DNA of 64,000 nucleotides. Source: Branchiostoma floridae (lineage: Eukaryota; Chordata; Leptocardii; Amphioxiformes; Branchiostomatidae). A program made the position numbers and the translations under genes. Location of the stretch: assembly GCF_000003815.2 (NCBI RefSeq), contig NC_049994.1, forward strand, positions 12,480,994 through 12,544,993. The letters run 5' to 3'. Shown one piece after another: positions 4,124 through 61,600 of the stretch. Position 1 is the first letter of the stretch, and every line of letters begins with the position of its first letter. Below the pieces are notes generated by a model that saw only the letters and a program-made list of their open reading frames with translations, did not search any database and was not told the origin of the DNA.

Positions 4124-7100
4124 TTACTTCTTAGAGGAAGATTTCCTGCTCGGCTTCTTGTTCTTGCTGGATGGTCTCTTCCCCTTCTTTATCAACAGCT
4201 TGTTCTTGATGAATCCTCGTTTTCTTTTTCCCGACTGTGAAAAGGAGGAATAGACAAATAGAAAAATACATCAGTTTTTTAATGTTCCCAGAGGATGTCA
4301 TCCATATAATCAAATCAATATGGCCATGTATGAAAGGAACAAAGAACAGCAAATGCTCCGTTACCTTTCTGGAAGTGAACTTGGTTTTGGGTTTGATGTC
4401 TGTCTACCTGACGGTGTGATCTAAGCTATTAAACCCCTAAAAAGGCAGCTGTACTGGTTATGCAAAAGGAACAAATAACAGCAATTTCTCCCTTATAGCC
4501 TTATCTTTCTGGAAGTGTACTTGGTTTGGGGCTTGATTTCTGTCTTCCTGACGGTGTGATCTAATCTAACCTCTAAAAAGTGTTACGCCTAAAAGGCAGT
4601 TGTAAATGTTATGTAAAAGGAACAAACAACAGGGAATGCTCCCTTACCTTTCTGGAAGTGAACTTGGTTTTGGGTTTGATGTCTGTCTTCCTGACAGTGT
4701 GATCTAATCTGACCCGGTTGTCCTGCTTCTTGACCTTGTAGATCCTGACCAGCCAGTGCTCGGTGGTGTAGGCCTCCTCCAGGTGCTGGAAACTGATGTC
4801 CTTGTTGCCGATCTCCACGTTCCTGGTACGGTCAAAACCAGGGGGGGTTCGGAAGTCCAGCTGCAAAACACAGTTGTTGTCATGAATCTCAGTGCTTGAA
4901 AAAAGTTTTTATCAAGATGATTTTATCATGGTGATATCTTGAAATGGGTAGTCACATTTTTATTTCTTTGGGCCTGTTTCCTTTCTCAACAAAGAAAATG
5001 TCCTTTTAGGGACAAATGAGTACTATGGGATGAGATGCTCTAACACTCAAGTTGTTACAAATCTGAAAGGCTATGTTCATCACTACATGTAGACCCCTTG
5101 TACAACTATAAAAAGAATACAAGAGTTAACAATGCCGGCCTGAAGTGATTGTTATTTCCAAGGGCACTATTGTAGAGTCGAAGTCATTGTCATTAAAAAC
5201 AGTAAGGGCACTCTCACTTGATACCTTTAACAAGTTCTATAGAGTTAGATGTAATAGAACAAGCTGCTGCAACTACAAAAGCACCCACCAACATCTTATC
5301 TAAACACAACAAATTTCTTAACACTCCTGCTTCAGATTTAGGGATACTAACCTGCATCTCCCCAAACCTGTAGTAGCAGAGTTTGTACATGAGACAGTTC
5401 AGCAGAGTCTTGGAGCCCGCCTTGTCCACTCGGAACTCTCCCTGGGGGGTGAAGTAGTCACCTTCCTGCATAGGTACAGAAAATAAAGGACTTCTTAGAA
5501 ATGATGACGCTACATTTCAAAGAAGCTTAACAGAATAAGTACAATCATATAACTTACTTAGCAAAAACAATGCTTCAGAAAGTTATATACAATGTACTTG
5601 ACCCTGCAAAAAAATCAGCATTTGTTCTTAAGTATTTCTTTTCATTTATTTCCCGTCATTTATTCATTTTTCCAACCCAAATCAGTTAGTCAGCCGGTCA
5701 ACTTACCAACTCACAAATTCATTTGTTTAATCATAACCTATGATACCTTCCCTCCTTCTTTCATTCCATTGCTTTTATTTAATCCATGTACACTTTTAAT
5801 GCCCTAGCAATCACATGCTTTGATACAATATCGCACAAATAAACCCTTAGAATCAGTAAAACTTGTTTCTTTTTATATCTTACCCTGATCTCCTTGGGAT
5901 GTTCCCCCTCTGCGATCCTCACCATCCACAGAAACTTGTTAATGTCATCTCCGGAGTAGCCAATCACACCCCCGAATATAACCAGCACATAGTCCACATC
6001 CAGGGCCTTCATGATCTCGTAAGCCCTCGTCTCATTGGACGACATGGCCTTTCCAACCTGTAAAACATAAAAAGTGACCAATCACTGTTTATGTTACACT
6101 TAGAACTAGCAAATGGTAATGGTAAAGCAGCCATTCTCAATTGAGGTGAAAAATGATGCTTTTTCAAGTAGCTAGTGGTCCAAAGCATAAATGTACACCA
6201 TTGATAGCTTTTAAATACAGTGAGTAATGCACAACTATCTAAAACAGCTCAATTGTTGCAAAACTTACTTGTAAAACCAAGAATGAATTAGTTTGTTTGA
6301 CCCTTACAAAGCTGCATAATCTGTTAATCGTTATCAATAAGAAACTGTGGAAACACCCTTGGTCAGCCACAGGTTAAAAAGACTTCAACCATTGACAGAT
6401 GCCCACCAGTGCTATGTGACTGTTGTTGCAAAGCTGCATCATCTTAATTGTTATCAATAAGATACTGTGGAGACACTTGGTCAGCCAATGGTTAAAACGA
6501 GTCAGACTATTGACAGATACCCACCAGTGCTATGTGACTGTTGTTCCACGTGTTGTTGTCCACCAGCGTCGTACGGTTCGCCATGCCGGCGATCTGGTAC
6601 CCGTAGTCCCACCACGACATCACGCGGGAATGGTCGTCTGTGTTCTGCCGCAGCCAATAGTAGGCCTCCCTGAAGTCGTCCAGGATGTTCCGCGACCTTT
6701 GCATGATGTACAAAATGACCATTAAACTGGTGGACGTACCGACTAATAAGTATCTAACAACAGCTTAAAAAAGTTAGTGCCAGAGTTACCAACCAAGAAT
6801 TGATGTGTTCAAAAATTCGTACTTTCCTAGAACTATAATATATTGTAGAGTGGAATATGTTATCATAAGTACGGTAGGGGCATCTTCTCTGGATAGTTTT
6901 AAAGAACGCTTGCAGATAGATTTGCAAAAGTTAGGCGTGACAGGTCTTTCAGTGCAATATAACCAGCTGCTGCCGCGCCGCGTGCCTGTGAAGCTGCTGT
7001 GTTACGACGACGGGCAGTTATACCGGCTATATAGATACAGATACAGAAGCTGGTGTGTTACGTTGAAGGGCAATTACACCGGCTATATAGATACAGACAC

Positions 7101-10100
7101 AGAAGCTGGTGTGTTATGCTGAAGGGCAGTTATACCGGATATATAGATACAGATACAGAAGCTAGTGTGTTACGCTGAAGGGTGGTCATACTGGCTATAT
7201 AGACACAGATACAGAAGCTGATGTGTTACTCCGAAGGGCAATTACACCGGCTATATAGATACAGACACAGAAGCTGGTGTGTTGCGCTGACGGGCAGTTA
7301 TACCGGCTATATAGATACAGATACAGAAGCTAGTGTGTTACGCTGAAGGGTGGTCATACTGGCTATATAGACACAGATACAGAAGCTGATGTGTTACTCC
7401 GAAGGGCAATTACACCGGCTATATAGATACAGACACAGAAGCTGGTGTGTTGCGCTGACGGGCAGTTATACCGGCTATATAGATACAGATACAGAAGCTG
7501 GTGTGTTACGCCGACAGGCAGTTATACCGGCTATATAGAATCTGATACAGATACAGAATGATACAGACCCGTCGTGGTTGTAGGAGGCCAGCACGACGCT
7601 GGGGCTGGAGTAGGCGTTGCTGGTGACCCAGGTGCAGTGCACGGCGAACATCATGAGGATCATCATGACTGCCATGACGACGATGGTCTTCACGTTTCCG
7701 CCCAGGCTCTCCGGCTCGCCGCTGGGCTCATGCCGAATCTTCCTCACCTTCCCTGCCTTCGTTAGAAAGGTCACAACACAAAATTAGAGATAGCCAAACT
7801 CGTAGTAAGCTATGAAACCTGTGCCCATCAGTTACGGTACTGGAATGGTTATCGTGATTATGATTTTTTACCTCTTTCAGCAGTGTTAATTAGTCTTCCC
7901 TGCCTTCGTTAAAGAGGTCACGACGCAAAATTAGAGATGAAGGTCGATTGAGGTCAGACATCCACGTAATAAGACGTGCCAAACTTGAAAGCCTTTTGTT
8001 GTTATGAAACCAGTGCCAATTAATTATGACAGTGGATTGATTATCGCGGTTGATTTTTACCTCTTTCAGCAGTGTCAGTTATCATTCTCTTCAGGCAAAT
8101 TCATGTGCTTCTTGGTAAAGATATTGAAAATGGACATGATACATGTACTGGTAGATATCCATGATACTGGTAGATAGCTTATCATATCTTTTTGCAATTG
8201 CCCTAACAAATTGTTTTCATGGACCCAATAAGAACCAGCTTTACAGGGCATATTACAGATATAATGCACAAAACAGAGTTTTGAGGTTTGCACTAAGATC
8301 TCTGAACACTTCTATAAAGTCTTACGAACCTTCGCAACACTTAATAATCACTAACACACATTCATGGAGAACAGAAACATACATGGGATGAGTGATAGAG
8401 TGAGGGAAGGTAGTGTGAGAGGAGTATGGCAAGTGTTTTTACTGATATCTATCTATCTATTCATTTTTCTAATTTCTACATGTATCTTTCTACATGTAAC
8501 GTAAGTTCACCTTTACCTGTGGTATAACCCTATGCCTGTCGTTTAAAAAAAATGGCATTTAGGATTTCATGTTAAGGGACGCTTGTTTCAAAATGCAACC
8601 ACCTGAATGCCGTTTGTGAAAACAACGGATATATGCAAAGATAAAGGTGAACTAACCTAAATGTTAGAACATCTAGTTATTCTTTGTTTCTATGGAGTAT
8701 TGTGTTCTACTTTTGTGTTGGCTGGTTTGGTGAAAGAAAGAAAGAAAGAATAAAAGAGAAGGAGGAGCAGAGAGTGGACGATGACCCAAAAAAAGAAAAA
8801 TGAATGAACAACAACTTACTGTTTTGGTTACCTTATCGTACAGATCTTTGCTTTTATTTCTTTTGTCACCCTCTTCGTCGTCCTCGCTCTCGTCCTCGAT
8901 GTGGTGGACCTTCGGCGTGTCGTCCACCAGGTAGCGTTCCAGAACGTTGGAGAACGCGATGGCGGAGAGGATACAGACCACGGGGGTCAGGGTCAGCATG
9001 AGGCGCACCATGACCCCGGCGAAGTAGCTGGCACTGATGGCGTACAGCACGACTGAGGGTGGGAGGAGGGTTTGACATGCATGTAAGGCCATGTGACTTA
9101 ATTATTTGGATGCATCCATGAAGGTAAGACATCCAGGTAGGTAATAAGAAACACCAAAAAGCGGTTACTGAAGCAACAGGATATGATTGTGGAAACAGTC
9201 AGATGTTTCAGACAACCATCCAGTGTCATCCAGTGTCTTTTGCCAGTGACATGTTGCTTGAGTAACTACTCTTTGCCTATTATTTGGATGATGCCCTCTG
9301 GGAATCCCCAAACTGATGCCAGTGTGCGAATAAAAAAAGTTTGGCCCAAAAAAGTGCCTTCATCATAAAACCCAAATACAAGTGGTCACGAAGGTTGATC
9401 AAATGACTAAACACACAGAGCATACCAAACAATAAATTCTTAATTCTTATTCTTTAACATTTTCTTCTTTGACCTTGGAATTGACTTTGCCCTTCTATGA
9501 CATTAGCATCCGTTTTCCAGTACTTTTTGTGCCTGTGTCATGCATGACTTGTATATCTCTATGACAATTATAAAAAAAAAAGATCAATGAAAAAAGACAG
9601 CAGAGTCGACCCACTGAAGACTCTCTCTTGTTGACCTTCTTGATACAGAACCAGACTATCTATGAGCTACAATGTCTTAACACAGTCTTAGGGTTCTGAA
9701 AGCAGAGTCTAAGGATTCTGAGTGCATTCCTTTAAGTATAAAATTGTTATTGTTTCTGTTTTTTTTATATTTCTGTTTTATATGTTTACATTTTTATATC
9801 AAGTATGCAATGTGCACTTCAATATTTCTTTGAAAAATAATACAATAACAAATGATTAAAAAATAGCATAGTCCACCCACTGAAGACTCTCTCATCGTTG
9901 ATCTTCTTGATACAGAACCAGACTCCAGCAGGGAAGGTGCAGACCAGCACATGCAGGTCGAAGAAGAAGGAGACCCAGGTGGTGGGCTGGTGCTCCGACA
10001 CTGACGCGATGATGGGGATGTGGATCTTAGCATACCTGGGGTTAAAGGAGTAAATCAGGGCTTTAATCTGAATACAATATACTACCTCAGTGAAAGGTGG

Positions 10101-13100
10101 CCCACAGCCCGATTCGAGCTTCTCATGAATAAATAAAGGTGCAAATAAACAAACACCAAACATGTATCTATTTGATATGAACTTACTGTTGCCATTTCCT
10201 ATGTATGGTTTATGGTTTACAGTGATATGTGACAGAGTAACACTTTGACAGAAAAACAAACAAACAATAGCAGCCTGGGTCCTAACCAGTGCTGTCTCCA
10301 GCTTGAAATTTAGTTCCGTCCCTAACATTTGGGGGGGAGGGGATCGGGCCGAAGGCTCGCCAAACTAGGGGGGTCCGGGGGCATGCTCCCCCGGGAAAAT
10401 TTGAAAATTCAAACCCTCTAAAACGCTATTTCACGTATTTTCAGTTGCAAAATTTCATTTCGCAAAGTAGGACTACACTCCACGATCTCGAAACAAAAGG
10501 CTTTGTTCCGACTGCCCGGCCCTTGGTCGGGAATTTCGCTGACGAAATATTTTGTTCGTTAAGCAGTGTTGCGTTTACACTCTAAACTTTGCATGGTACT
10601 TGTTCGACGTCATTTTCACGTATGTGTTAATAATTTGGATAGTTCGGGGGCTGGATAATGCCGCGGGTGTTGGCATTATTGGCCGAGGTCCATTGGCGCA
10701 TTTCAACTTGTAAGATATCGTAAGATCGTAAAGGAAGTTTACATCACCAATTATATCATCTACCTACTTTGTCTGGTACTGATTGCTAGCATGCTCAGAT
10801 AGATTTCTATACTATATTTTGCAGCTTCATTTTGCTGGTGTTGTGTTGCTGTTTCTTTAACCATCAAGAAATGTGCATTTTTCGATAAAATTGAACACCT
10901 TACTGCTCGTCGTCCAGCACCGTCCAAAGGGTACAGATTTGCAAAAGATCGGTGGAGAATTGCCAACAGCGATCATGTTCACAGCGCTGGGTAAGAATAC
11001 TGTCGCGGGCTACTTCCGTATAATTTTAGTGGAAGATCGGCAAAAAATATACAAGTTCGATTCCTGATATTTTCCCGTGAAAATAGGGTTACATTCCGCC
11101 GAAAATTATGTATAAGCTGTAGCGAGTTGAAAAATGTGGCTAGACGTGTCGTTACCATGGTAGCAGGTCCGGCGGCAGCCTTCTGAAGTAGCGCCTGCGA
11201 CAGGGCGTGCGTGATAATTCTACAAATCCAATCAACTTCCCACCTATCACAGCCAGCAGCGGCGCGGACGAAGCGGTAACACCATGTCAATCACGAAGAA
11301 GCGAGGAACTTTACGAACACGGCGCTGCGAACTCGGTCCCAAATCCAAGCACAGACGTGATTTTGAAGATAAATGGCGCAAGAATCGGCCGTGGTTTCGT
11401 CACATCTTGGACGTAGACGGTGAGAATATGGTGTTTGTCGTTTGTTTACAGTTTGCACCGCGGGGAAAACGTCCTTTGTTGTAGAACTATGGAGATCACC
11501 AGTGTGACGGTTTACTGAGGCCTCCGAAACACACACGACTGCCGAGTAAAGAAAGATAATTTCTGATTCGCCGTGTCAGGTTCATAATGAATTGCAGTTT
11601 CCCGTTAATGTTGATTTTAAAACGTACAAAGGGCCGGGTGGGTGATTCGATCGGCATTGCAAAATAGAACATTGAATAAAAGTGATTATTACCGATGTTT
11701 TCTTGTCATGCTTGTTCATAATCCATACGCCAGTACACACACAACAAGGCTTTTACAATACGGAAACAAATTGGGCGGGATGCATTCTCCGCCCACCGCT
11801 CGGGCGGCCTGCCTATGAAAAGAAGCTGATTTCTGCTAAACCCCGAACTTTCGCCAATAGGGCGTGTCTGGAAAATGTTTATGAAAAGAACAGGTGTACA
11901 CCGCGTGTTCGCCACATCATCAGTTCGAGAGTCATGCATCCACCGGTCCCAGTAGTTTATGTTCGGACATTGGTGCTAGTTGACATTGGGACTTTAGCTT
12001 AAACTTGCTAAAGAGCCACAACTGTGGTAAGGCACAGTGGTAAGGTAAGATAACTACGCAGCCCCGCCTTCTTTTGCGCCACGCGAATAGCACGCTTTGC
12101 CGATCTCTGATGTCCACACATCTCCGTATGTCCGGGCCGCGTTTATCTCGCCGCTTGGAACGTGGGGGCGTCGTGAAGGAAAAGGCAAAAGTCGATTAAA
12201 TTTGAAGTCGGAAGCCTATTTTAGTTATTGAATCTGCCATTTTAAGCTTACGAAACTGCATTTTCATGTCATGAAATTAAGATTTTTGGGACGGAGTGGG
12301 TGGATTTTTTTCCCGTCCCAACAAGTAAATTTCCGTCCAGGGACGGAGGGACGGGTCCTGGAGACAGCACTGGTCCTAACATACTATACAATACACTGTT
12401 TGTCAGTCTAGTACAGACTGGGCATAAGAAAAGTTTTACTTGGTACCCATTTACTCAACAGACAATAAACAACATCCCATAACCTACTTACCCCGTGTCA
12501 TATAGAGAGTAGAATCTTCCACTCCATGGTGCAACATAACCTGAAATACAAGGATTTGTACATAAATATCATGGAATGTTAGGTATGAAAAAAAAGTTGT
12601 AATAATGGTACATTTTTCCTGACTTATCCCTCTTATAAGTCATCGAGGAAGTAATACAGCCCCATATATGGGTCTACTGGCGTTAACTCACCAACTGAAA
12701 GGACTAATGCAACCCTCACAAGTCACAACGTGCCCAAACTAGTCCTCTTGACTTCCCAACACATGGTAACTCACCTGCGTATGTTTTTGTACCATGTGTA
12801 TGTAATGATATATGTTGATAGATTTATCAGTACTCAAATCTATGCAGTATCTCTGTTGTATTTTATCTGACCCTTACCTCCCTCATGACCTCAGTGATTT
12901 GAGCTTCTCATGAGTAAATTTTTTCTTTCTTTTTAAGACCTTTATTTCCAGCTTCAAGTACAATGAGTACATACATATTTCAGTCTATGAAACAGTACAT
13001 ATTTCAGTACATACGTATTTCAGTACATACATATTTCAGTCAGTTTTGAGTACAATGGATACATACATACTTCAGTATTTAACATGTAAGCACATCAGTA

Positions 13101-16100
13101 CTGTGTAATGGAAAATATCAGCAATAGAAATCGCAAAAACAAACAAACAAACAAACAAACAAACAAACAAACCTGCGTATGTCAGGTACACCACCGCCAT
13201 GAGGACGGCGGCCGCCGAAGCAGCCACAGCGAAGAAGAAGAGCGACCTCATCTCGGACTTGGTCAGGCTACTCAGGTGCGTGTGCAGGTACTTCAGGAAC
13301 CCGTACGCTATCAGGAGCGCAAACACACCTGTGGGGACAAGGGAGGTGTGGAGATTTGGTCTAAAATTGAGACAAGATTATCTATTAAAGGGCAACAAGA
13401 AAAATATGACCAGTACATGTCAATGTCAAGTACTCACTGTATCTAAACTCAAAGGTATTTTTAAAATGTGAGTGTGAGTGAATGAGTGACAGTAAAGTGA
13501 ATGAGAGTGAGTGATTGAGTGAATGAGTGGGAGTGGGTGAGTGAGGGAATGAGTGATAGTGAGTGAGTGAAAGTGTGAGTGAGTGTGTGTGTGTGAGTGT
13601 GTGTGTGTGTGTGAGTGAGTGTGTGTGAGTGAGAGTGAGTAAGTGAGTGGGTGAGTGATGGAAACAGTGTGACTTACCGGCTGATGCCATGTGTTCGCTG
13701 GTCCTGATTGGCTGGAAGCCGACGAAGGGGACCTGCATGGACAGCAGCAGGCCCAGGATGAAGAACGCACAGTACGCTGTGGGGGAAAGGTCAGAGGTTA
13801 GGGCCAGGTCAGATTCATCACACAACGGGTTTATTGTTTGGATGGTCATGGATATGGTCAAGGTTGCTATTAGCCATTGTGAACAGTTGTTTCTGTCATA
13901 ATCTTGATGAAAATGCTAGTATGACAACACGATCCCCCTTTGAATCCCAGTTGTTGTCGCTCAGACAACATGTACCAATGGTATGGGAAAGGGTCACAGT
14001 CCTCAGGACATGATGTTCAGCTGTGGTCCACTGTATGTTGTACTTGCCAATAGGAGCTAGGGGAGTGGAAGAGTAGTTCTTCTCTGAGGTTTGGGACCAC
14101 AAGGAATGATGAGGGCTGTTTCTTCACTTCTGAAGATCACAATTACTAAATAATAGTTACAAAAGGCTATGAAGATCACAACTACTATATGTAATATTAG
14201 CAGCTACAAAAGGCCATGAAACCATGATTCCATCCTTACCTACGAATATCCTGTAGGAGAACCTGCCCATCAGGAGCAGCACAAACACGTGCAGTGGGAT
14301 GAGGTTGATGATGTAGACGTACCCTCCCCAGGCAGACACCTGTCAATCAAACATGTTACCACGGTGATGGTTACCACAGCAACACCAGTGGTTGCCATCA
14401 TAGGAAATGGCTCTAACCGTGTATGTTGTTTATTCACAGACAAATTCATCTCAACAACTGGATAAGATACAGACACTATCACTATATATTTCCAGTGGCA
14501 TTCATCACTCTTCTTCAGCATCACTAGAATAATGTTCACGCTAAAGAAGAGTGATAGATATCAAATAAAATGTCAAGAAATGATCTTCGTATCTTATCTA
14601 GTTGTAGAGATTGATTTATCTGTAAACAAATATCCTTTTAATTCAATATCTAACCTACAGTTAATATCTGACCTAAAGTTAATAACTAACCTTCATAAAT
14701 GTATTCTAATTATTTGTCTAAGCTATATAGGAAAAAATAGGAAATTTTACACAGACAATACATAGAGCTGGACTCACCATATAGAAATATGCCAAAGCTG
14801 TACATCCTGCCCAGAATATAGACCCTGTCTTTACTGATTTAACCTGCAGAAAAGAGAAGGATTGTTTACTCAGATGACTGATATCATAGGAGCCGAGGTA
14901 AAACTGCTACCTAATAATAAATTAATCAGAATATTGTCTTTGAACATATTATATCAAATTATTGACAGCCAACAAAAACGTTCTTTTATACATAACATAT
15001 AAATTCTTCTAAAATTAATTTTAAACATTTTCTTATGACGTTTACCTATAAACAACACCATTCATACATTTGTACATAACATTTGCATTGTTTGCCCATA
15101 CATTGATGGTTAGTAGGGTAAAGGCTAAACATGAGGTTTATACATCTTTCATGTAGTGAAGGGCTCTCATTTGCAATGATTACTAGAATACTTAGTAGTT
15201 GAGTATTATACAAGTATATGGAACTGGGCCAAAATTAAACAGTGTAACAATACCAGCCCTTCAAATGTTGTCCATTGTCATTGTATCATAAGTGGTAGGG
15301 TTGGAAGTGGTGGCGGAGAGTTTTGTTAATTTTTTGGCTAAACAGAAAGCTTTTATCAGAGATACTTCAGACAACTGAAGTACCCTTGAAGCTAACTCAG
15401 TTGGAACTGCCTTTTGTATGGATTACGCTTTTCCTGGGTAAATGTGAACAAGCTAAAGTGTTGCCACGGTAAAAAAAGAAAATGTTTCAATTTTAAATCA
15501 TAACTTCATTTTGTATATCCTGAAAGGCAACAAGACCCAAAATAACCACTGGAATTTTCTTTCCCTACGCAATGATTTCATTTAATACTAATAGTCCTCT
15601 ACTAAAGTTGTAAAGAGAGAAAATATTTGCACTAAATCATAACCTACTCAAACAGAAAGACAGAATTGCAGCATTTCCTACCTAGCCTCTGAATAGTATA
15701 TTCCATTGCGCAGATATATGTACAAAAAAAACAGCTCAGGTGGAACATACCATCTGTAAATAAGGGAGGGGTAGCCCTGCTCGTTTTCATGCATTTAGCT
15801 CTGGACTTAATCCTAAATAGAAAACTTCACTTGTCTAAAAAATCTGCCGGTCAAATTGAAAAACAATCCCCAAATCAATATTACATGCAACAGCCTTTCA
15901 AACAGCTAACATCCTAGTCTGAAGGATCTAAGCATGTCACTCATGAACATGCAGTACAAGCCTTCAGTGTAACAGATTACCGAGATATTGATTTTATCCT
16001 GCATCCCGATACTCTCATTTTGAATAATTGACACTAAGTGCCCAAAATACGGTTTTGAAAATTGTCTTGTCAGTTTCAGGGATCCTCAAGGTGTCTAGCG

Positions 16101-31100: not shown

Positions 31101-34100
31101 CTTGCCCGATCGGGCAAGTAAGATTTTTCCATGAAAGAGATTTTGCTATACATGTTACCTTTCACAGTCATACCATCAAGCAGTAGTCAACACAGAAAAA
31201 TAGAGCCAACAATAAAAGAATTCAATTGATGGAATTGAAAATACTTAGACAAATGTCATTTGCATGTTCAGATAAGTGAAAAGTTTGTTCAGGCAAGTAA
31301 ATTTTCTATGTACTTGCCCGATAGGACAAGTAAATTTTACAAAAATTGCCCAACCCAGGGCCTTACACAATTTACAAACACTCATTTACTCAGTACAGGT
31401 TTTGTGCAGGTAGACACCAGAAATCTTTTGCACATCTCCAATTCTACCTGCACTAACCTTCATATGCAGGTGGTACTACTAAATGCATCTAAATTTTAAG
31501 CTCGCTGAGATTTACTTTCGTGGTAGCGGGAAAATGGAGTGTTTGCGGTGGTTTTAAGTTTGCAGTAGCGCCATAGACTGTAGTCACATTCTATTATGGA
31601 AAAATGTTCACGGTGGTTTTAAGTTTGCAGTGAAGTGGCCACTGCAAAAACCGCAAACATAAAACTACCACAAACATTTCTGCATTTACAGTACTACCAG
31701 CCTTAGATGCCATGCCCTGAAATTTGTGCCTTCCACTGAGAATTTAGAGAGCTGAAAGTTAACTCGATGAATTCTGCACAGTGGTTGCAAGCAATAAAAC
31801 GATAGGTTTATTTTCAATTTTTCCCCCACCAACGAATGATACATCACTTCTAATGGGCAGCAAAATCTAATGCTGTTATGCATTTTTAATACTGATCGCC
31901 AGGGAATACAATTTTACGTCTTACTCTGCATAGATAACGTTGCTCCATTCTGATAAAGAGATGAATATGAATAACTGTACCTAGTTTGACTTGAAAGTTC
32001 AAACTATAATGAAACGAAATTTTAACTGCCACTGACGGACTATAAATACCAAATGCGCGGGTGTGTCTGATAGCCTGTACCAAGTGATTTCGGATGAACC
32101 TGAGGAGTGTCACTGGTTCTGTCGTAATTGCAAGAAAGGGGCCCAGAAGTTGTATCTCAGTGTCATAGCACTTACGGGGGAATTACAGTCAGTCAACGAG
32201 AAACTCCGTTTACTGGAAAGTAAGGATTCTGAGCTAGAAGCGAGAATACATCTCCTAGAAGAGTCCCAAACAAACACACAGCACACGAGCGGACTAACAG
32301 AAGAGCAACTTATTGAGAAAATCGTGAACAAAACTACAGAAACTGTAACTAAGTCAGTAAAAGACAACGTAGACAAACAACTAAGCGAAAAAGAGGACCA
32401 AGAGTCCAGGAGGTTAAACCTCATAGTGCACAACCTACCTGAGTCCAACTCCAGGCAAGGTGACATAGACAGCTTTACTGAACTCGTAAAGGAAGAATTC
32501 AAGTTGAAGGTGAATGTCACCAATGCCCAGAGACTAGGTAAGCCAAGTATTGAGAATACCAGACTGGTCAAGGTAACCATGGCCAATCTAAGTGAAAAGA
32601 AACAAGTACTGGCATTGGCCAGGGAACTGAGAGAAAGCGCACACGAGGTCTACAGCCAGGTCTACATCCGCCCAGATTTAACCAAGAAACAACTTGAAGA
32701 ATCAAAAAACTTGAGAGAGCAACTGAAAGGAACAAGAGAAAGAAATCCAGACAGGAAGTGGATAATAAGAAGGGGACAGATTGTAGAGGCAAACTAGACC
32801 AGCTTAATTACCACGATTTGAGCGTATTGTACACCAACACAGACAATTCAATCATGAGCAAGTATGACGAACTTTGTGCAATCATTACAGAAAAACAGTA
32901 CGATGTTATATGTCTGACCGAAATTAAACCTAAGCAAGGATCTCTACCCGATCGACAAGTTATGCAAATACAGGGCTATGATCTGTTCACCAGTGACTTA
33001 GAATCTCCAAACACTAGAGGCACATGTGTATACATCAAAGCAGTGTATAAGGCAAAGCAGGTGATCCCGCCGACAGAATTTGTAGACTGCACCTGGGTAT
33101 CAATACAAGGAAGAAATGACACGTCCATACTAATTGGAACCCTATATAGGTCAGGAACACCAGCTCTTGCAATTACCAGAGACCTGGCTCTTCACGAGAC
33201 GTTAAATTGGGCGGTTAACACGCAAGACTCACATGTGCTGATCACAGGAGATTTTAATCACCCTAACATAACTTGGACCCCATCACCACACTTACGGGCC
33301 ACACATGCTGATAATACTGACAACCCTGCAACTAGATTTATTGAATGCATGCGCGACACCTACCTTTACCAGCATGTCACAGGACCTACAAGGTACCGTA
33401 GCGACCAAACCCCCACACTTGACGACTTAGTCCTCAGTAATGAGGAGGGGATGATAGAGCAGATTACACATGAGGAACCACTAGGCGCAAGCGACCATGT
33501 TAGAATTGAGTTCAAGTTTGTCTTCAGCACACCAGTCAAGGAGAACAAGAAGACAACTTGGAGATTTGACAGAGGTAACTACGAAATGATGAGAGAGGAC
33601 TTGAAGCTCAACTGGGAAAACCTGCTCGAGGGTAAGTCGACCCAAGAAGCTTACGCCTTATTCCGGCAGAAAATTGCGGAAGCAGCCCAGAAACACGTCC
33701 CAACAAAGACAATTGACATCTCTAAAAAGAAACTCAAACCATCTTGGATGGATGAGGAAGCATTCCGCAAGCTAAAGAAAAAGCACCACGCCTGGATAAG
33801 ATATTTGAATACTAAAGACATCAGCGACTGGACAGCGTACAAACGAGCTAGAAATGCGGCCACACATGCGTCTAGGAAGGCACGCAAATCATTTGAGAGG
33901 AAACTTGCCGCAGAAGCCAGATACAATAACAAAGCCTTCTGGAACTACGTCAACAGTCGCCGAAAGACTAGAACACAGGTGGGAGATCTGAAGGATGCAC
34001 ATGGGAACTTTACTGCCATCAACAGCGAGAAAGCAGAGATACTGAACAACCAATACTTTAGGACGTTTACACAAGAGGATCACGAGAATATCCCGACATT

Positions 34101-37100
34101 CCCGAGGATCCAGTCAACCACGGCTCTTGACACAATTAACATCACAGAAGAGATGGTGCTTGAGCAGCTACAGTCACTCAGAGTGGACAAATCTCCAGGC
34201 AAAGATGGCGTACACCCTAGAGTGCTCAAAGAGCTAACAGACGAGATTGTTGGCCCCTTAACCCAAATCTTCCAAAAAAGCATCAATGACGGCAAACTCC
34301 CAGACGAGTGGAGAGAGGCCAGTATAACCCCCATCTACAAGAAGGGAGACAAGTCAGACCCCGCGAATTATAGGCCGGTGTCTCTGACTTCCGTGCCATG
34401 CAAGATGCTAGAGAGGATTATAGTTAATGAATTGATCACCCACATACGGAACAATGATCTCACATGCGAGCAGCAGCACGGGTTCACACATGGGAAATCC
34501 ACTATAACCAACCTACTGGAAGCAATGGATGTCTGGACTGAGGCCCTAAGTCATGGCCTGCCAGTTGACGTAATCTTTTTAGATTACGCCAAGGCCTTTG
34601 ACACAGTGCCACATGAGAGGCTTTTGAGGCGGGTAGAATCCTTCGGAATCGGCGGTAGCCTTCTGCAATGGATCCGTAACTTTCTGACACAACGGAGGCA
34701 GCAGGTTGTGGTGAACGGAAGTGCCTCTTCTTGGAAACCGGTTATAAGTGGAGTGCCTCAGGGCTCGGTCCTAGGACCGCTTCTTTTTACGATTTTTGTA
34801 TCAGACATCCCGGAAAAGATCCAAAACTTTGTCTCGTTGTTCGCGGATGATACAAAAATCTATGCTGCTACCCAAAAATGCGAACAAAGTGCGCATACAT
34901 CTTGCCTGCAGGCAGACTTGAACAGCCTACAAGAGTGGTCTGTAAAGATGCAGATGCGATTTCATCCCGACAAATGCAAGGTTATGCATCTAGGGAAGGC
35001 CAATCCCCAGCACAAGTACACAATGAACAAAGCAGATGGAACTAAGCACATGCTGGAGAGTACAGACGAAGAAAAGGACTTAGGGGTCACTATTGACAAA
35101 AATCTGAAGTTCAGCAAACATGTGCAAGTGCAAGCGAACAAGGCGAACAGAGTTCTTGGTCTGATCAAGCACACCTTTGCACATATTGAAAGAGAATCCT
35201 TTTTACTTCTGTACAAGAGCCTAGTGCGACCGCACCTAGAATATGCAACAACAATATGGTCCCCCAAGACCAAGAGAGACAGAGACACAGTGGAAAGAGT
35301 GCAGCGACGAGCCACAAAACTGGTGAAAAGTATATCCCATCTCACGTATCCAGAAAGGCTAAAAGAGCTGGAGTTACCCACGTTACACTTCAGAAGACAG
35401 AGATCTGACATAATCCAGCTGTTTAAGATTACACACGGGCTTGATACAGTTAGAGTGAATAACCACTGCAACCTATGCGGGAGAGCCATGTTTACACCAA
35501 GCTTGGCATCAAACACACGAGGGCACCAGTATAAGTATCAAATCCAAAAAGCTACGGGCCCGAGGGCACACTTCTTTCCCACACGAGTTACCCCAGCATG
35601 GAATAAACTCTCACAGAGCACAGTGAATAGCAAGTCAGTGAAAGAGTTCAAGACAAGACTGGGGCAGGAATGGGGACTGCACCCAGACAGACATGAGTAC
35701 CACTTCTCTTACTGATGCTACCACCGCCACAACTAGGACAGCCTTATTACCCGCAAGGGTATCGACTGGCTGTGGTTCAAGGTAAAGATTCAAGGTAAAG
35801 ATAAATGACAGTGATATTATATGATCACAATTTGTCTGAGGGTTTCATTTTCAGACAACCAACTAAAGAGAATCGCTTGAATATGAGAAGATCACAGAAA
35901 GCAACTCCGACTATTACACCAGAATCCTTGGTCTCTGGGGTGCATGTCAGTTTATAGATTGTCACATTTCCAGCTAGGGAACAATCTGTTCTAAACCAGA
36001 GATTTCTTTCACCTGATACTAAATATTGAAAACTGATTTGCTTATAAATGGTAGCAACAATGCATTTTGTGAGATACAATAGACAAAGTGCAAATCCTCC
36101 TTTTGTATTTTGTTTTCTTCATATAACATCAAGCATGTGAAATAATGTATTTCATATGCACCATTTGCAACACAAACTCAACAGGGACCCATCAGAATAC
36201 ATGCATAAAAAACAGTCCTTTGTCTTCATTATAACACACTTATAAGTAGGCTAAGCCAAGATACATTTCTTAATCAGAATTCAGATGCCTAAGAATGAAT
36301 TTGGCACTTCAATTCCAATTCCAAGAGGAATATCTTTAGCAACACGTCAATATCAGTTTACTGTTTAGTTCAAATAGAAATTAGAATAATATCTCTTTTT
36401 CTAATTGAGCGTAATCTTTTTATATAATGTTTTTTTTTTCATTGTGAGTTACTAGCCTTAAAACAATAAGACTTTTTATTACTTCCTGGTTGCCAATGCA
36501 AAACACAGATGTTCTGCTTTTCCTTTTAAGAGTTATAAATGACCATCATAAAACAATAAATTTGTCTTTCAGTGACAGAAACTTTTTGTACAAAGTATTG
36601 CCAACATGACGACATCATTACTTTGACCAAGGCTGGCCAAAAGTCAAAATCAACAAATCCTGGAACTACCCTAAGTTTTCATGGAGATAATGCAATAGTA
36701 AATGACAAACTAATCAAACATTTAGTTGCCTTTATGTCATTTATGAAAATGAACAACAGAAAGGAATATCATTGCTAAATATTTTGTTTATCTATATATT
36801 TTACGACAGACTTTATACAGAAATACAACAAAGCTTCTTTGCATACATCATCAATACAAAAGAACATCATCAATACAAAAGAACAAAGACAAAACTGACC
36901 TCCTCATTAATTATGTATATATACAGGGTAACACTAACAGCTATATTCGTGTTCACCTTTTCATTCTCTTTCAATTGCCCCTAATTACAACAAAGGTACC
37001 AGCAGTCCAATTAAGCATTGCGCATTGCACATTAACCCTTAACAAACGCCCCTCCCCCACCCATGTGCGCACCTGACGATCACCTGAGACCAAACCTTAA

Positions 37101-40075: not shown

Positions 40076-42395
40076 GGCAGAATCGCTCACCCAAGACCCC
40101 CTACCAACCCAACAATCCGTTTTAATAATAGTGACTGTTGATGCATAAATTGTGGTGAATGTGCATTGTACTCGCAAGCCTTTCCCTGATTCAAGGTCCT
40201 TTACCCTTGACCGAGCTGTAATCAGTACTGCTACACAGAAAACCCGTTTTCCCGGGGATGATATGTAGTAAATCACACAGCTAGCGTTCCAAATTTACAT
40301 ACACCAGAAGCAAATATCGTAAATCGTTGATGTGCTCATGTGTAGAGAACCAGTGACAATGAGTGGCGACTTAAAGAAGAATTATATTTTTCCAATCATC
40401 GGGGCATTTTCCCTCCTTCTGTAACATCTCTCTTATCCCTGAATAAACTTACAGATTTTGAAGACATTTAACCCCGGGAACTGCTGTTGTGACATCGATA
40501 TGAACACAATTTCTATGATTCTTGATTCTATGATTTTTTCCACACAAATGCCGATCGAAGCACAGATAGCCCGAGCCTGCTTGTAATGGGAGACTTCAAA
40601 GCTACGCCGTTACATTACGATCAAAGCTAACAAGGGATGAAATTATTGCCCAATTACTTTTTGGGGGGTCAGCGGTAGGGCATGGTCAGTGTGCATGTTG
40701 ATCGAGCCTTGTCTTGTTTTGAAAAGAATCAGTGAAGTATTTTAATTTGTCTTTAATTTGTCTTTGGATTAGATGTTTGGAAGGAGAGGGTGGACTTGGT
40801 TCGGCCAAGCAGCCCGCGATGATGATGATGATGATTTTAATTTTGGAGAAATGTTTACCAAAACGATATTGAGAGAAAAAAAGCTTCAATGAAAATGTAC
40901 AATTGACAAAGAAATGTACAATTGGCACAGAAAATTATCAAATGTTGTAAGAAAATGTTGAAGACGATAAAGCCTCACATGCCATACTGATAACGTTAAC
41001 ACATTAATGTGACATCATGTAATGCCATGACGAATACCTCTGTATCCATATCGACGCTATACCTTATCGTTAATTATTCATGTAACGTTAACGTCATACC
41101 GATTCTAGCCAGACGTAAAACCCACTCACTATCGATTTTTTTGTAACTTGTCGTATCTTAAATTATTCCAATGTACCGATGTCGATACATGAACTATGCA
41201 TTTCTGTAATTTAAAGAACATTCAGATTTAACATTCATTTTGCGTTATTTGACACTTGCACAGATTTACCAAATATGGATAGAATCTTATTGTTGGTGCT
41301 GCTGTTATTCTCATTGAACGTCTATGCCATAGCTAGCTAGACTTGATTGTTGTCCATGTTGAAATTGACTCTTCGATTCAAACCCCATCATCTACGATTC
41401 TATCTATTCTATATAATATATCGATCATCTAGGATTGACTTATCGATTTTGACACGAAATAATTTGCGAAGAACATTGGCTTTTGCCAAGTAGGCAATGT
41501 AGTAGACAGAGATGAGAGTAACGCCCCTCTCCTGTTGACTACAGCTGAGAACGTGCTGACCCCTGACCTTAGGGGGCGTGTCACGGCAAGTCAACTCTCT
41601 CATTCCCTTGCAAAACCCGACTTGATTCCGGATTTGCAAAAAAATATTGAGTGACTTGTAATACAAAACTATCAGTTGTTCATATGTTGACAGATAAACT
41701 AGTCAGAATGTGGATTTCTGCCAAATTATCGGACAAATTGTCACCGATCAATGGGTAGAATCTCGTAAATTGGGTCACCTGATCCATTATTTGTGAAATA
41801 ATCTTGTGAATAGGCGGATCTATATCCATCCGCAGGAGGTTGACGTGTGGATTGATAAACATGATTCCTGTGAATTTCAGTAGCATTTCCTGTATGTGGA
41901 ACCAATATTTTGATGTGTTAGTGGTCTAAAAGAAGAGATATTTAAGTGTGAGGAAGAAAATGTCGACAAATTGTCACATTTCTGTCCGGACATTGTGTTG
42001 ATTTATGAGTATGGCACTACTTGGTGCATACCAAGCCAACAATGCACGTCCATACACTGTGTAAGAACATCATTAGTAAAATCTATTGTCTAAAAAAAGT
42101 AGTCAAAAAATGTTTAATACTAGATTATAGTGAGTATAATGATAATATTTTCTGAAAATAAAGAATGAAAATGTCCTGTGCGATACAAAAGTCTTTACAT
42201 ATACCCCCTAAAGAAAAGCGGTAGATCCTCCCAGCGTAGGGATATGTGTGTTTACGTCCATATCAGCCCGTGCTGAGGCGATAGACGGCAGTTGAGCAAT
42301 GTCGGCGTTGAGGAGAGGTAAGAGACGAAGAAAACCCGCAAAAGTCTTAAAATTCAGCTGATTTTCGCAGATCGGGCCGATTTTTACTGGCATTT

Positions 42396-43238
42396 ATGCT
42401 ACCAAGAGAACAGCTCGCGACTATGGCGGATTTAGAGCACAGTGTGAGCCCGGAAGCGGAGGGAATGGACGGGGACGATGAGCGGACGGAGACCGAGCTA
42501 GCGGAGCACGACTCCCCGGACAGCAAGCGGGAGTGTCACCGTAACGACGGCGGCGATCACCCCCTGGAGGAGCACCTCAACGATCGGCGGAGAAAACACC
42601 ACCGGCGGGGACACCGGGGCTCGGGGGCGGAGGGGAGGAGGCGTTTCCGCCGCAAGTGGAAGCCGTTTGTCAAGCTGAGCTGGGAAGAGAGGAAGGACTT
42701 GGAAGAGCGCGAACGGAAACGCGCGATGCGGGTCCGCGAGATGATGTTCGCCGAGGGCCGCACCGTTGCACCCTACAACACCACGCAGTTCCTCATGGAG
42801 GACCACGAAACACAGTCCCCCTTCCACTCACCCAACCTGGAAGTCCTGCAGCGACAGCAGAGCAACGATACCTCCAACTCGGACGACATGCCGGACTCCC
42901 CCGAGGACGACTTCGGCATGGAGGCCGGTTTCTTCGAGAAGGACTTTTCGGAGACGTACGAACAGTTTCACGCCGAGAGTCTGAACAACATGAGCAAGAC
43001 AGACCTCATCAGAGAATACCTGGAGATGGAGAAATGCGTGGAGAGACTTGAAGCAAAACTTGAGACGGCAAGCAAGGAGGACAACTCGTCTGAAGACAAG
43101 ACGACGTCTCCCGTGGGGAACGACAGAGAAAGTGAGCTACGCCGAGAAGTCGAGAGACTCCGCCAAGAAAACGCCAAACTTCAGGCCGAGAACTCTCTCC
43201 TAAAGCAAGGCCGACAGAACAGCGCACCCGAGGCATAG
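42396..43238 (+). CDS. HEXIM1: HEXIM, 7SK-dependent inhibitor of P-TEFb (single exon)
   Basis: 280 aa, intronless like the human HEXIM genes. HEXIM binds 7SK RNA and then inhibits CDK9-cyclin T (P-TEFb), holding back transcription elongation in the nucleus. Visible parts: acidic N-terminus; arginine-rich basic motif at about 64-88 (RRRKHHRRGHRG, RRRFRRKWKP), which in the family binds 7SK and importin; WKPFVKLSWEER; PYNT at 126-129 within VAPYNTTQFLMEDH, the CDK9-inhibiting motif; acidic stretch at about 160-180; FFEKDFSETYEQFHAESLNN; then a C-terminal coiled coil for dimerisation and cyclin T binding, ending in a Leu-rich heptad segment. Two in-frame ATGs (42396 and 42423); the second lies in ACTATGGCGGAT and may be the real start. 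Vertebrates have HEXIM1 and HEXIM2; a single ancestral gene is likely here, so the symbol marks the family. Confidence 0.95.
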   Translation: MLPREQLATMADLEHSVSPEAEGMDGDDERTETELAEHDSPDSKRECHRNDGGDHPLEEHLNDRRRKHHRRGHRGSGAEGRRRFRRKWKPFVKLSWEERKDLEERERKRAMRVREMMFAEGRTVAPYNTTQFLMEDHETQSPFHSPNLEVLQRQQSNDTSNSDDMPDSPEDDFGMEAGFFEKDFSETYEQFHAESLNNMSKTDLIREYLEMEKCVERLEAKLETASKEDNSSEDKTTSPVGNDRESELRREVERLRQENAKLQAENSLLKQGRQNSAPEA

Positions 43239-52546: not shown

Positions 52547-54318
52547 CTACTCAGTTGTACTGGGTTTTGCCCCATCCCCCTTATTCTGGGCATCTTCACT
52601 GTCCTCGTCCCCATTGTCTTTTTCTATTGTTTCTCCTGTTGCTAGGCAATATAACTGGTCAGCAAACCTGACAGCATCATTGGCTCCCTCACATGCCTTC
52701 ATCCAAGGGGGTGGTACGTACTCAATCCCATAATACGCACCAGCTATGGCCCCTGCCATAGTGGCTATGGTGTCTGTGTCCCCGCCTAAGGAGATGGCGT
52801 AGATGATGGTACGTTCCAGAGCGTTGTCTGTGGGGATGTCGTCGACAGAGCGTGTACAGTGGAGGAAGGAGAAAATGGCTGCCGGAACAGAGTTCAGCGC
52901 TTTGATGTCATTTCCAAGTTGGTCTTGAACTTCCTGCCTTGAGACCTTTTCCCTTTGTAGAAACTCCTTCATGATTTCTAGTTTTGCACAGTAGGGCTGG
53001 TCTGGCAAGGATGCCTCTTTAGATGAAGCTGCCTCTTTGCTCCCTTTCTCTTCTTCTGATTGGTCACCTTCAGTGCCTTCTGATTGGCCAGTTTTGTTGT
53101 CCTCTGATTGGCCAACTGCCTGTCCTTCTGATTGGCTGCTGCCTGCATCATTTACCTCAACTATCCTCATCTTCTCAAGCAAGTTGTCTACAAACTTAAC
53201 CACATTTAAGTTCTCATCTTTACTCTGCTGCAAAGCAAGATGAACAGCTAATGCTTCCAGAATAGCCCCATTATACCCTTCCCTATTGAAATGCGTAATC
53301 ATAGCAGTCTGCTTAGCTACGTCCTGAACTTTCTCCACATTACCATAGGCGTACAGTGCCACCGGTGCAACCCTCATAGCCCCACCATTGCCGTACGACC
53401 CTCTCCCGTCGAACTGCTCTCGTGCCGGCTCAAAGACATCTTGAAGGCCTTCATCAAGGAGCCTGTAGAAGACGGTGATGACGTTCCCTCCGTAGCCACG
53501 GCCAGACTCCCTCTTGTACTCCTTAGCAAACCTGGTGGCCATGTCACGGGCGTCAAAGCCCTTGCACTCAATGAGGGAGCTCGCTACCGACCTGGAAGTA
53601 TAGAGAAGAGTCAGATTTGAGTAAAGCTTTACTTATGTTCTGAACCTGGTTGGTCAAGTACCGTCAATTGTAATCTCCAAGCAGATGTTGAGGGGGACAT
53701 AAATTGTCATGTTTATTGTAAAGCAGATGCCATGGTCTCTTGCATAATTAATTTGATTTGGACTCACTTCTCGGAGCAATCTTTTTAGCACTCTTTCAAT
53801 ATACGATATTATCCCGAGTCTTCAACTTATGAGGTTATGCTGAACCCTCAACTTATAAGTCTTATGAGTTTGGCACACACATGAAGAAGAAGAAGGGGGC
53901 AGAAACGTCCACCCATCATGTCCTGGGCTACTTAAAGTCTGCGGTTTTGTGTGAAACAAACCTTGCCATGGCTGTGTCATCCGTAAATTCCACCTCCCTT
54001 CCTCTTTGCTTGTTGACATGCTCCACATATCCCAGAATCTGTGTAAGCAAAACAACAACCAAACCATTTAAAAGACGTATACTATCTCAGTATCTGAACT
54101 TGACATCAACACCTACACATACGCACTGAACTATCGTCAGTTCCACGAGAAGTATTTTCATTAACTGTGTAAGACTGTAACATAGTTTTAGCCACCTTAT
54201 CAACTGGCCGACAGCGACCCTCAAACTCGGCACCGATGCAGTCCCCGGCTACGGCGGCCGCAAGACAACCACGAAACCGCGAGCGTAGAATCTGAGCTAC
54301 CGACGCCATTTCAGTCAT
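52547..54318 (-). CDS. ADPRS: ARH3 / ADPRS, ADP-ribosyl-serine hydrolase (3 exons)
   Basis: Removes ADP-ribose from serine after DNA damage and degrades poly(ADP-ribose) and O-acetyl-ADP-ribose. Exons 54196-54318, 53962-54038 and 52547-53591; phases fit; 414 aa against 363 in human. Exon 1 has RFRGCLAAAVAGDCIG with the catalytic-loop Glu in GAEFEG. Exon 2 has FTDDTAMA (metal ligands T60, D61, D62). Exon 3 has SGRGYGGNVITVF, GRGSYGNGGAMRV, YNGAILEALAVHLAL and SLGGDTDTIATMAGAIAGAYYG (ligands D338, D340, T341). Metal ligands of the family therefore all appear present. The extra length is mainly a hydrophilic insert at about 215-255 with four octapeptide repeats, and an acidic C-terminal tail. 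Two possible starts, 54318 and 54309. Divergent from CNTRL. Confidence 0.95.
53055..53150 (-). repeat. 24-bp coding repeat in ARH3 (four octapeptides)
   Basis: TCTGATTGG recurs at 53055, 53079, 53103 and 53127, a strict 24-bp step. Translated on the minus strand it gives four x-Q-S-E-x-x-x-x octapeptides (residues about 219-250). Confidence 0.92.
53671..53690. mobile_element. Single end of MITE family C in ARH3 intron 2
   Basis: TAATCTCCAAGCAGATGTTG; no matching opposite end seen. Confidence 0.5.
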
Positions 54319-58600: not shown

Positions 58601-61600
58601 ACCTCATGGATACCAGCATCAATCCAGAGGATCTCCAGCAGAGAGTGCAAGAGTTGAAAAGATATGTAGAGAAAGGCACAGGAACACTGAAACCTCAAAG
58701 TGAGAGGGACAAGGTCGGGAAGCTGCTAGGAGACTTACAGAAATCTCTCAGTGAGGCACTGGAGAAGAGAGCAAAAGACGCGGCTGATGCAAAAAGGCGA
58801 CAACAGCAAGCTGAAGCCGCCATCAGAGCCCTTGAGGATCAGCTAGCACAAGCCACAGACAGCTACACCCAGAGTGCGAGGGATGTGGCTCAGCAGCAGC
58901 GGGATGNNNNNNNNNNNNNNNNNNNNNNNNNNNNNNNNNNNNNNNNNNNNNNNNNNNNNNNNNNNNNNNNNNNNNNNNNNNNNNNNNNNNNNNNNNNNNN
59001 NNNNNNACGCAAGTGGAGGACAAGCTGGCTGAGGCAAAAGCAGAGATGACCTAACTGCGAGGCACCATGGACGATGCAGAACGGAGAGCAATGCGGGACA
59101 AAGCAAAGGGAAAATCAGATCTGAATGACCTTGCCCAGCAGCTTGCTGACCTTCAGAGAAAGATGAGGAATGCGGATTCCCTGACGAGGCAGCAGATGGC
59201 AGATGCGGAGTCCATGGCAAACCTGCGTACGTCACGGGCGCGGGAAGAACTGGCCACTGCTCAGGACGAGATCGGGATGTTGCAAGATCTTCTCGATGAC
59301 CTTCGCAACAGGCTTCGGCAACAGGAACGTAAAGCGGGTGCCAGTCAGATGGCGCAAGAAGATCAAGACAGACAAGTGGACAATCTTCTAGCAGCGCTGA
59401 GGAACCAGCGCAGAGATGCAGACAGGTTAAGGGCCACGTTGGATAAATTGTCAGATGAAAATGCTGACGACGTTGCAGCACTGATGGCAGAAGTGAACGC
59501 ACTGCGGGATACCCTCTCACAACAAGCTCAAACAATCGCAGCGCTGACCACACCAGCTCCGCAATGGTACTACGTCCCAGCAAGGGGGAAGACCGGGGGA
59601 TACTGGGTGCCTTCCACGAACGGTCAACAAGTGCCTGGGGGCCAGGCTGGAGTGCCTAGTAGTAGTGTAGGAGGTTACTGGGTTCCCACTACAGGAGGAG
59701 GTGGAAGAAGTGGGTACTGGGTTCCGACAGCGAGACAACCGGGGAGCCCGATTGTCATCAGGTCTCCTGCGGGGCCGCCAAGGTTCTACAGTACCCCAAG
59801 GAGACGTGGTGGTGGAGGAGGAGGAGGAGGGGATGAAGATGGAGATGGCAGCCCACCAATCTTCTATGCTCCAGCTGGATCAGTACCAGTACCAGTGGCT
59901 GCACCTCCTGGATATGAAGCTGTCATCCCTCCTGTAGTACAGACCGTCGAAGATGATGCAGCCCTAGTATGTAACGTACCTGAACATCACGACCTAGAGG
60001 ATGAACTTGCAAAGATGAACGAGCTTCTGTCCAAGTTCAAGACGGAGAAGAAACGAAGAAAGTCTGAGATCGAAGCTCTTGACCTTGCGTTAACACAGAA
60101 GGAAGAACACCTCCGCGAGCTTGAAGATAAAAACGAAGAACAAGACAGACAGCTCAAAGAAACAGCCAGAAGGTTAAAAGAGAAATCAAAGAGTGCCAAG
60201 CTAGATGATGAGTTTGTGGAGGATGCCTTGGATCAGCATAGGCAGCTACTAGAAGAGATAGCTTGTGTAGAGGAGACACTGTCCAAACGTAGGGCCGAGT
60301 TACGGGAGTCTGACCGCCTCTTACAGCAGTGTCGGGAGGACCTGACCAGAACAACTGCCGAGGCAGGAGACACCATCAGGCGATACGACGAAGCGCGTGC
60401 CAACCTTGGCACCACAGAAGAGGATGTAAGGGAGCTCGAAAAGAGAGCTAAAGAGACAGGAAATGATTTACTTGATGCGCAGGACAAACTGACAGAGCTT
60501 CAAGGGGACATCCTACATGCAGAAAGCAAGAGAGCTGGACTGGAGCAAGACATAGACGACATCAAAAGGGTCATAGCTCAGAGAGATGGAGAATTCCAGG
60601 CTCTGGACATCAAGACGAAACGGTTAACAGAAACTCTGCAAGAGTTAGAAGCACAGGTTGTGATCACCGAGGAAAAAGAAGCAGAAAGGCACAGGGCCTT
60701 AAAGGATGTGGAAAGAGTCCTGGCAGAACGAAAGGCTGAGCTGGGAAGGCTTAAAGGACAGGTGGAAGTGAAGCAAGGCGAGCTGGAAGAACTAGATAAG
60801 GATCTTGGACACAAGCAGACACATATTCAACTGCTGGAGGAAAAGATAGCTGCCACCAAAGCTGAGCTGGCTTCAGCAGCTAAAGAAAGAGACACTGTGT
60901 TAACAGAGACACAGAGGGAAGTGAGAGAGTTCCAGGACCTGCTGGAAGACCTTCGTGCTGAGAGCCAAGACCTTGACACAGTTGTGAAGGACAGAAAGGC
61001 AGAGCTGACAGAAATCAAACAGGAAATAAACGACAAGGAAATCGACCTTGATGCTGTTACAACAAAGATGGAGCGCTGTGTTACAGAGTATAGGCAAGCC
61101 CAGGAAACCTTGAAACGGGAAAGGTCGGACCTCGACTTGGCAAAGCAGCAAGTGCGAGACAAAACGCTGGAAGCTGACCAGCTGGAAGCACTCATACAAG
61201 AAGAGAAAACACGTCTAGAGCAAGTGCAGAACAAGAACAAGCGGAAACAAGCAGAGGTGCAGAGGTTAGATGAACAACTAAAGGAGCAACAGCAAGAGTA
61301 CGACTATCTATGTGAGCAGCAAAGAACTCTCCAGGCAAATGTCAAGACATTGTCAGACGAGAAGGTCATGTTACAGGAGTCCAGAGATGGGTTGATCACC
61401 AAGACCAGGGAATCCAAACATCGTCTCGGAGAAACCGAGCAGCATCTGCGGACAGCAGAAGACCAGTTGGAGCGACTACAGAGAGACGTAAGACAGGAAG
61501 AAGTGGATTTGGCAAAACTGAAGAAGAAGGTTTCCTCTGCAAGGGAGGAGGACAGAATCATACAAGACAGCCTCCAACATGCGAAAAAGCAGCTGACAGC

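Follow-up and report, generated by a model that had tools for sequence, protein, structure and literature searches.

Four exon edges of the STT3B gene of Branchiostoma floridae have extra, diverged copies in the adjoining intron. These copies are very probably "mirages", i.e., local, mostly head-to-tail duplications of ∼110 to 150 bp, with one end landing by chance in an exon and the other in its intron; short tandem duplication most likely left them behind as neutral by-products. The significant copies at four edges, the intact frame of exons 2 to 18, and coding damage in the copies (one stop codon, one 1-bp deletion) support this reading. The DNA analyzed (the window) was a single stretch of 64 kb.

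Copies of exon edges in STT3B

The host gene of the copies lies on the minus strand, and its product, STT3B, is a sugar-attaching enzyme. Its exons were mapped via the reading frame and GT/AG borders, the choice between junctions being guided by human STT3B. When joined, exons 2 to 18 (19687 to 4124) form a single open frame with a single stop; the end of exon 1 was recognized near 37340, and the gene spans ∼33 kb, with a first intron of 17.6 kb. The protein encoded by exons 17 and 18 matched STT3B (6s7t_A, PDB) with an E value of 4e-39 and STT3A with one of 4e-17 (one query residue was mistyped). In exon 12, a second donor lies in frame 12 nt from the first (8818-8832; AAG/GTAACC and ACA/GTAAGT, the slash marking the exon–intron border), possibly an alternative site that adds VTKT. 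Intron 1 contains a LINE-like open frame of 1005 aa on the plus strand (32698-35712) with endonuclease and reverse transcriptase domains.

The edges and copies described here are all on the minus strand. Real exon 17 (4648..4860), placed by the intact-frame map and the match to 6s7t_A, has its donor (AAG/GTAAGG) at the low end, with 4648 as the last exonic base. Its end is present twice more. Copy 2 (4433..4571), which includes the head of the intron, aligns with 4585-4714 at 112 matches and 18 mismatches; it has an 8-bp insertion, and the donor GT following its last exonic base (4505) has become AT. Copy 3 (4326..4427) aligns with 4611-4710 at 93 matches and seven mismatches, retains the GT (GTAACG) after its last exonic base (4365), and carries an in-frame TAG in its coding part. 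The real end of exon 14 with the head of its intron (6426..6548; donor CTG/GTGGGT, last exonic base 6525) adjoins a single copy (6304..6430; 110 matches, 12 mismatches; period 118 in Tandem Repeats Finder), the decoy donor of which reads CTG/GTGGGC (last exonic base 6407). At exon 13, it is the start, together with the tail of the preceding intron (7748..7892; first exonic base 7756), that was copied (7895..8081; 118 matches, 24 mismatches, and 48 gap columns), resulting in a decoy acceptor (first exonic base 7903). The real end of exon 11 with its intron head (9816..9924; donor TCA/GTGGGT, last exonic base 9881) has a copy at 9547..9657 (92 matches, 14 mismatches), with a 1-bp coding deletion and an identical decoy donor, TCA/GTGGGT (last exonic base 9615). 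Thus, the alignments recovered every copy where the original prediction had placed it, including the two additional exon 17 ends with GT and AT, respectively, the GTGGGC kept at exon 14, the GTGGGT kept beside a frameshifted coding part at exon 11, and the decoy acceptor of exon 13. The claim that the copies span both exon and intron held at all four edges, exon 13 contributing only 9 bp.

The copies of exon 17 (three, including the real one), exon 14, and exon 13 are contiguous or nearly so, i.e., three of the four sets, with unit spacings of 140-143, 118, and 147, respectively. The exon 11 copy comprises 110 nt at a spacing of 266, and is separated from the real edge by a 158-bp spacer (9658-9815) without match to 9300-9546 beyond the copy; exon 11 is therefore not a clean head-to-tail pair. 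The idea that the spacer is what remains of a 267-bp unit after decay found no support: 210 of 500 shuffles reached its score against 9300-9546. A tandem origin of the exon 11 copy is nevertheless what we infer, with the unmatched spacer counting against it.

The significance of the copies was assessed by scanning 32 STT3B edges (the exon 1 donor and the exon 2 acceptor were left out) against 200 dinucleotide shuffles of each edge's own intron. At four of the 32 edges, the neighboring intron clearly contained additional copies; these were the ends of exons 17, 11, and 14 and the start of exon 13, with z values of 39.7, 31.0, 22.3, and 14.1, respectively, none of these scores being reached by any of the 200 shuffles. 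The exon 9 donor was the fifth edge to exceed all 200 shuffles, its match being a GTTT microsatellite, and the remaining 27 edges had z values of at most 2.2. In a second scan of the same edges, with only two intronic bases in the query, the score of exon 13 was equalled by 10 of 168 other blocks of the window. This weakness is due to the fact that only 9 bp of exon 13 were copied; the evidence for this copy is carried by its intronic part. In the same scan, the end of exon 9 emerged as a possible fifth case, its very short copy (12773..12784) being an exact 12-mer, ACATACGCAG/GT, followed by GAGT. Its score was reached by none of 418 other window blocks but by seven of 5,000 shuffles, which, with 32 edges tested, makes it a marginal candidate, and it was held back from the clear cases.

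Local repeats are few in the window as a whole. Self-comparison of all 64 kb (direct repeats, starts ≤1.5 kb apart, E ≤0.001) returned the four edge cases, a 56-bp minisatellite, a GTGA-rich run, and four weaker pairs (16210, 21945, 25060, and 51554); Tandem Repeats Finder added several short arrays. The minisatellite (6990..7551, 10 copies) was rejected as a further edge copy, since it lies entirely within the intron, 17 bp away from the exon 13 donor. Donors also have tandem arrays nearby at exon 9 (13137-13172, 0 bp away) and exon 8 (13468-13658, 19 bp away), and the exon 9 donor, GTTTGT, continues into the AAAC array. Elsewhere in the window, a 295-codon open frame (42351-43235) matches the HEXIM family, an ADP-ribosylglycohydrolase open frame (52550-53632) includes a 24-bp tandem repeat (53043-53136), and the window's only 100 N (∼58900-59050) interrupt a long plus-strand open frame for a coiled coil.

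Placement of the duplications

The edge-crossing share expected by chance was taken from a null model in which duplications of the observed lengths are placed at random. Among tolerated cases, this share is 24-26% over exons 2 to 18 and 34-38% in exons 11 to 18, and finding four of 4, 5, or 6 events on edges has p values of 0.003 to 0.045 and 0.013 to 0.15, respectively. A further calculation put the share at 10.9% (13.7% with simulated detection) for the whole gene including exon 1 and at 32.3% (38.9%) for exons 11 to 18. With detection not modeled, four edge events among 4, 5, 6, or 8 have p values of 0.0001, 0.0007, 0.0018, and 0.007 over the gene and 0.011, 0.040, 0.090, and 0.24 in exons 11 to 18; with detection modeled (assuming a uniform distribution of ages up to 50% divergence), these become 0.0004, 0.0016, 0.0042, and 0.016, and 0.023, 0.079, 0.16, and 0.38, respectively. 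Which events to count is a matter of judgement; neither the minisatellite nor the weak pairs within introns are part of the lower totals. When simulated for the gene, 554 of 559 intron-only pairs at the observed intronic divergence (10-20%) were found. Missed detection thus explains little of the edge focus at this age, and it does not account for the scarcity of intron-only duplications.

The four events fall within 5.2 of 33.4 kb (p 0.013, or 0.022 when edges instead of bases are drawn). Among the four edges, three donors and one acceptor, a preference for donors was not significant (p 0.30). Simple arrays in the introns of STT3B show a tendency to sit close to donors, with a combined p of 0.0016 for 10 arrays, which becomes 0.028 without the AAAC array (touching the exon 9 donor) and 0.025 if nearness to either edge is considered. 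Because the edge, clustering, and array tests were conducted after the fact and on one gene, which moreover has a very long first intron, their results are to be taken as leads.

As proposed originally, the copies could stem from a mutational process aimed at exon edges; transcription-linked breaks near 5′ splice sites would be one example. Such a process is conceivable but not established, and we consider it unlikely; the p values span 0.0001 to 0.38, according to which events and which region enter the count. The lowest values over the gene, without and with modeled detection, come from restricting the events to the four edge pairs. The minisatellite and the three weak pairs at 16210, 21945, and 25060 can also be taken as events, ones off edges, and four of eight then yields 0.007 to 0.016 for the whole gene and, for exons 11 to 18, 0.24 to 0.38. 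The almost complete detectability of intron-only pairs at the observed age speaks for an edge-aimed process, as do the simple arrays 0, 17, and 19 bp from donors and the fact that the first repeats in lancelet PGBD5 abut 5′ splice sites, according to the excerpted text of PMC3902484. The weakening of the array signal in the alternative counts and the nonsignificant donor bias speak against it. A broader version is likewise doubtful, namely that exon–intron edges, 5′ splice sites above all, are hotspots of short tandem duplication in this lineage, the edge duplications and the arrays 0 to 19 bp from three donors sharing one transcription- or splicing-linked cause, and that decoys are continually supplied in this way as raw material for new introns.

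Decoy splice sites and decay of the copies

Four of the five decoys kept their GT or AG, the one lost being the GT of exon 17 copy 2. Scored by their match to the U1 consensus, the decoy donors come close to the real ones (6 versus 7 for exon 17 copy 3, 5 versus 6 for exon 14, and 4 versus 4 for exon 11), and at exon 13 the decoy and the real acceptor are almost identical. Use of the donor copies at exons 17, 14, and 11 would add 118 to 283 nt, the extension running into a stop after 15 to 59 nt, and use of the exon 13 decoy acceptor would lead to a stop at codon 6. Any decoy, if used, would therefore bring about an early stop. The open frame that exons 2 to 18 form with the outer (real) sites is consistent with normal splicing. 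It had been put forward that all extra donors lie downstream of the real one and that the copies may reflect tolerance, downstream decoys being ignored. The position is as described, but it is no sign of tolerance, because a duplication that takes an exon tail plus an intron head places the decoy donor downstream by geometry alone. That downstream decoys are ignored, and hence tolerated, is nonetheless plausible and in line with RT-PCR on other amphioxus mirages.

The five pairs, when pooled, differ at 12 of 206 exonic and 63 of 394 intronic sites (Fisher p 0.0002; exon 17 enters twice, so the rows are not independent), as expected if selection holds the real exonic member. Intronic divergence amounts to 16%, plus 72 gap columns. 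The 12 exonic changes comprise four synonymous, seven nonsynonymous, and one stop, separate from the 1-bp coding deletion in the exon 11 copy, and fall on codon positions 1, 2, and 3 in three, one, and eight cases, respectively; one of them, at 4696, is counted twice. At this position both exon 17 copies agree against the real exon, which for this reason has probably itself changed there.

That the copies serve as alternative splice sites, e.g., yielding stop-containing transcripts that tune the level of STT3B, is highly improbable. The exon 11 decoy donor does equal the real one in its U1 match, the exon 13 decoy acceptor is a near-identical neighbor of the real one, and the extensions reach early stops, like regulated poison exons; on the other hand, the GT of exon 17 copy 2 is gone, the coding parts are decaying, and for the published mirages no disturbance of splicing was seen in the excerpted text of PMC3087553 and PMC3902484. 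An assembly artefact, in which two diverged haplotypes of one stretch were joined in tandem, is also highly improbable: one globin mirage appears aberrantly assembled in the draft genome (PMC3087553, in part), and the excess of third codon positions (eight of 12, a small number) would suit alleles, but the stop codon and the 1-bp deletion in the coding parts, the seven nonsynonymous changes among 12, the intronic divergence with its gap columns, the three copies of exon 17, and the short units with neighbor spacings of 118 to 266 bp all disfavor this part of the original prediction.

Local duplication, with ends placed by chance, thus remains the preferred reading. The copies would probably have arisen through slippage during replication, a switch of template at short homology, or unequal exchange; the original splice site would remain beside the intact exon and be the one used, and the intronic copy with its decoy site, being free of selection, would decay. 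The clustering of the events (p 0.013), the scarcity of intron-only duplications despite near-complete detection, the distribution of exonic differences over codon positions, and the probable alteration of real exon 17 at 4696 count against this reading.

Comparison with mirages in other amphioxus genes

Mirages are already in print for amphioxus, which weakens the notion that four independent events in one gene are surprising. Among the literature matches listed, no title pointed to an amphioxus case beyond PMC3087553 and PMC3902484; the phrase "mirage minisatellite" found no match, nor did Branchiostoma plus "exon boundary" with two other terms. According to the excerpted text of PMC3087553, the amphioxus globin genes BflGb6 and BflGb9 carry mirages at 5′ and 3′ boundaries alike, with units of 150-160 bp, the BflGb6 copies being 81-100% identical, and RT-PCR suggests normal splicing; a model in the same paper proposes mirages as a source of new introns. 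It also cites Adh3 and other loci as cases, with a unit range of about 10 to 160 bp, and, for Adh3 (Canestro 2002, as cited there), units of 10-72 bp and somatic instability. For lancelet PGBD5, the excerpted text of PMC3902484 describes imperfect repeats in tandem at splice sites, with units of 60 and 108 bp, confirmed by re-sequencing, and names troponin C as a further case.

In STT3B, boundary-spanning units were found at four edges and both boundary types are represented (three donors, one acceptor). The tandem arrangement of exons 17, 14, and 13 fits that of mirages, as do their spacings (140-143, 118, and 147), whereas the exon 11 copies (110 nt at a spacing of 266) lie 158 bp apart without counterpart. 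Natural tandem copies of real splice sites provide a test of how the spliceosome chooses between near-equal neighbors, and four or five in one gene suggest that they may be frequent enough in the lineage to make a genome-wide count worthwhile as a test of chance against an edge hotspot.

As in the globin mirages described in the excerpted PMC3087553, the STT3B copies span exon–intron boundaries of the 5′ and 3′ types with imperfect identity, and AG or GT is kept in many, but not all, of the globin repeats, compared with four of five decoys in STT3B. In BflGb6, the copy number varies between haplotypes; STT3B was read here from one sequence. The repeats of PGBD5 (PMC3902484, in part) are similarly imperfect and coincide or overlap with splice sites; they differ in being partly annotated as an extra exon and in a number that varies by assembly (2 or 7, 3 or 6). 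Compared with Adh3, as cited in PMC3087553, the STT3B units are longer and the copies diverged. Thus, the phenomenon is known in amphioxus, and STT3B, in which four, perhaps five, edges of one gene have mostly one extra copy each, differs in this from the globin mirages and adds a new instance, perhaps also a new number of cases for a single gene.
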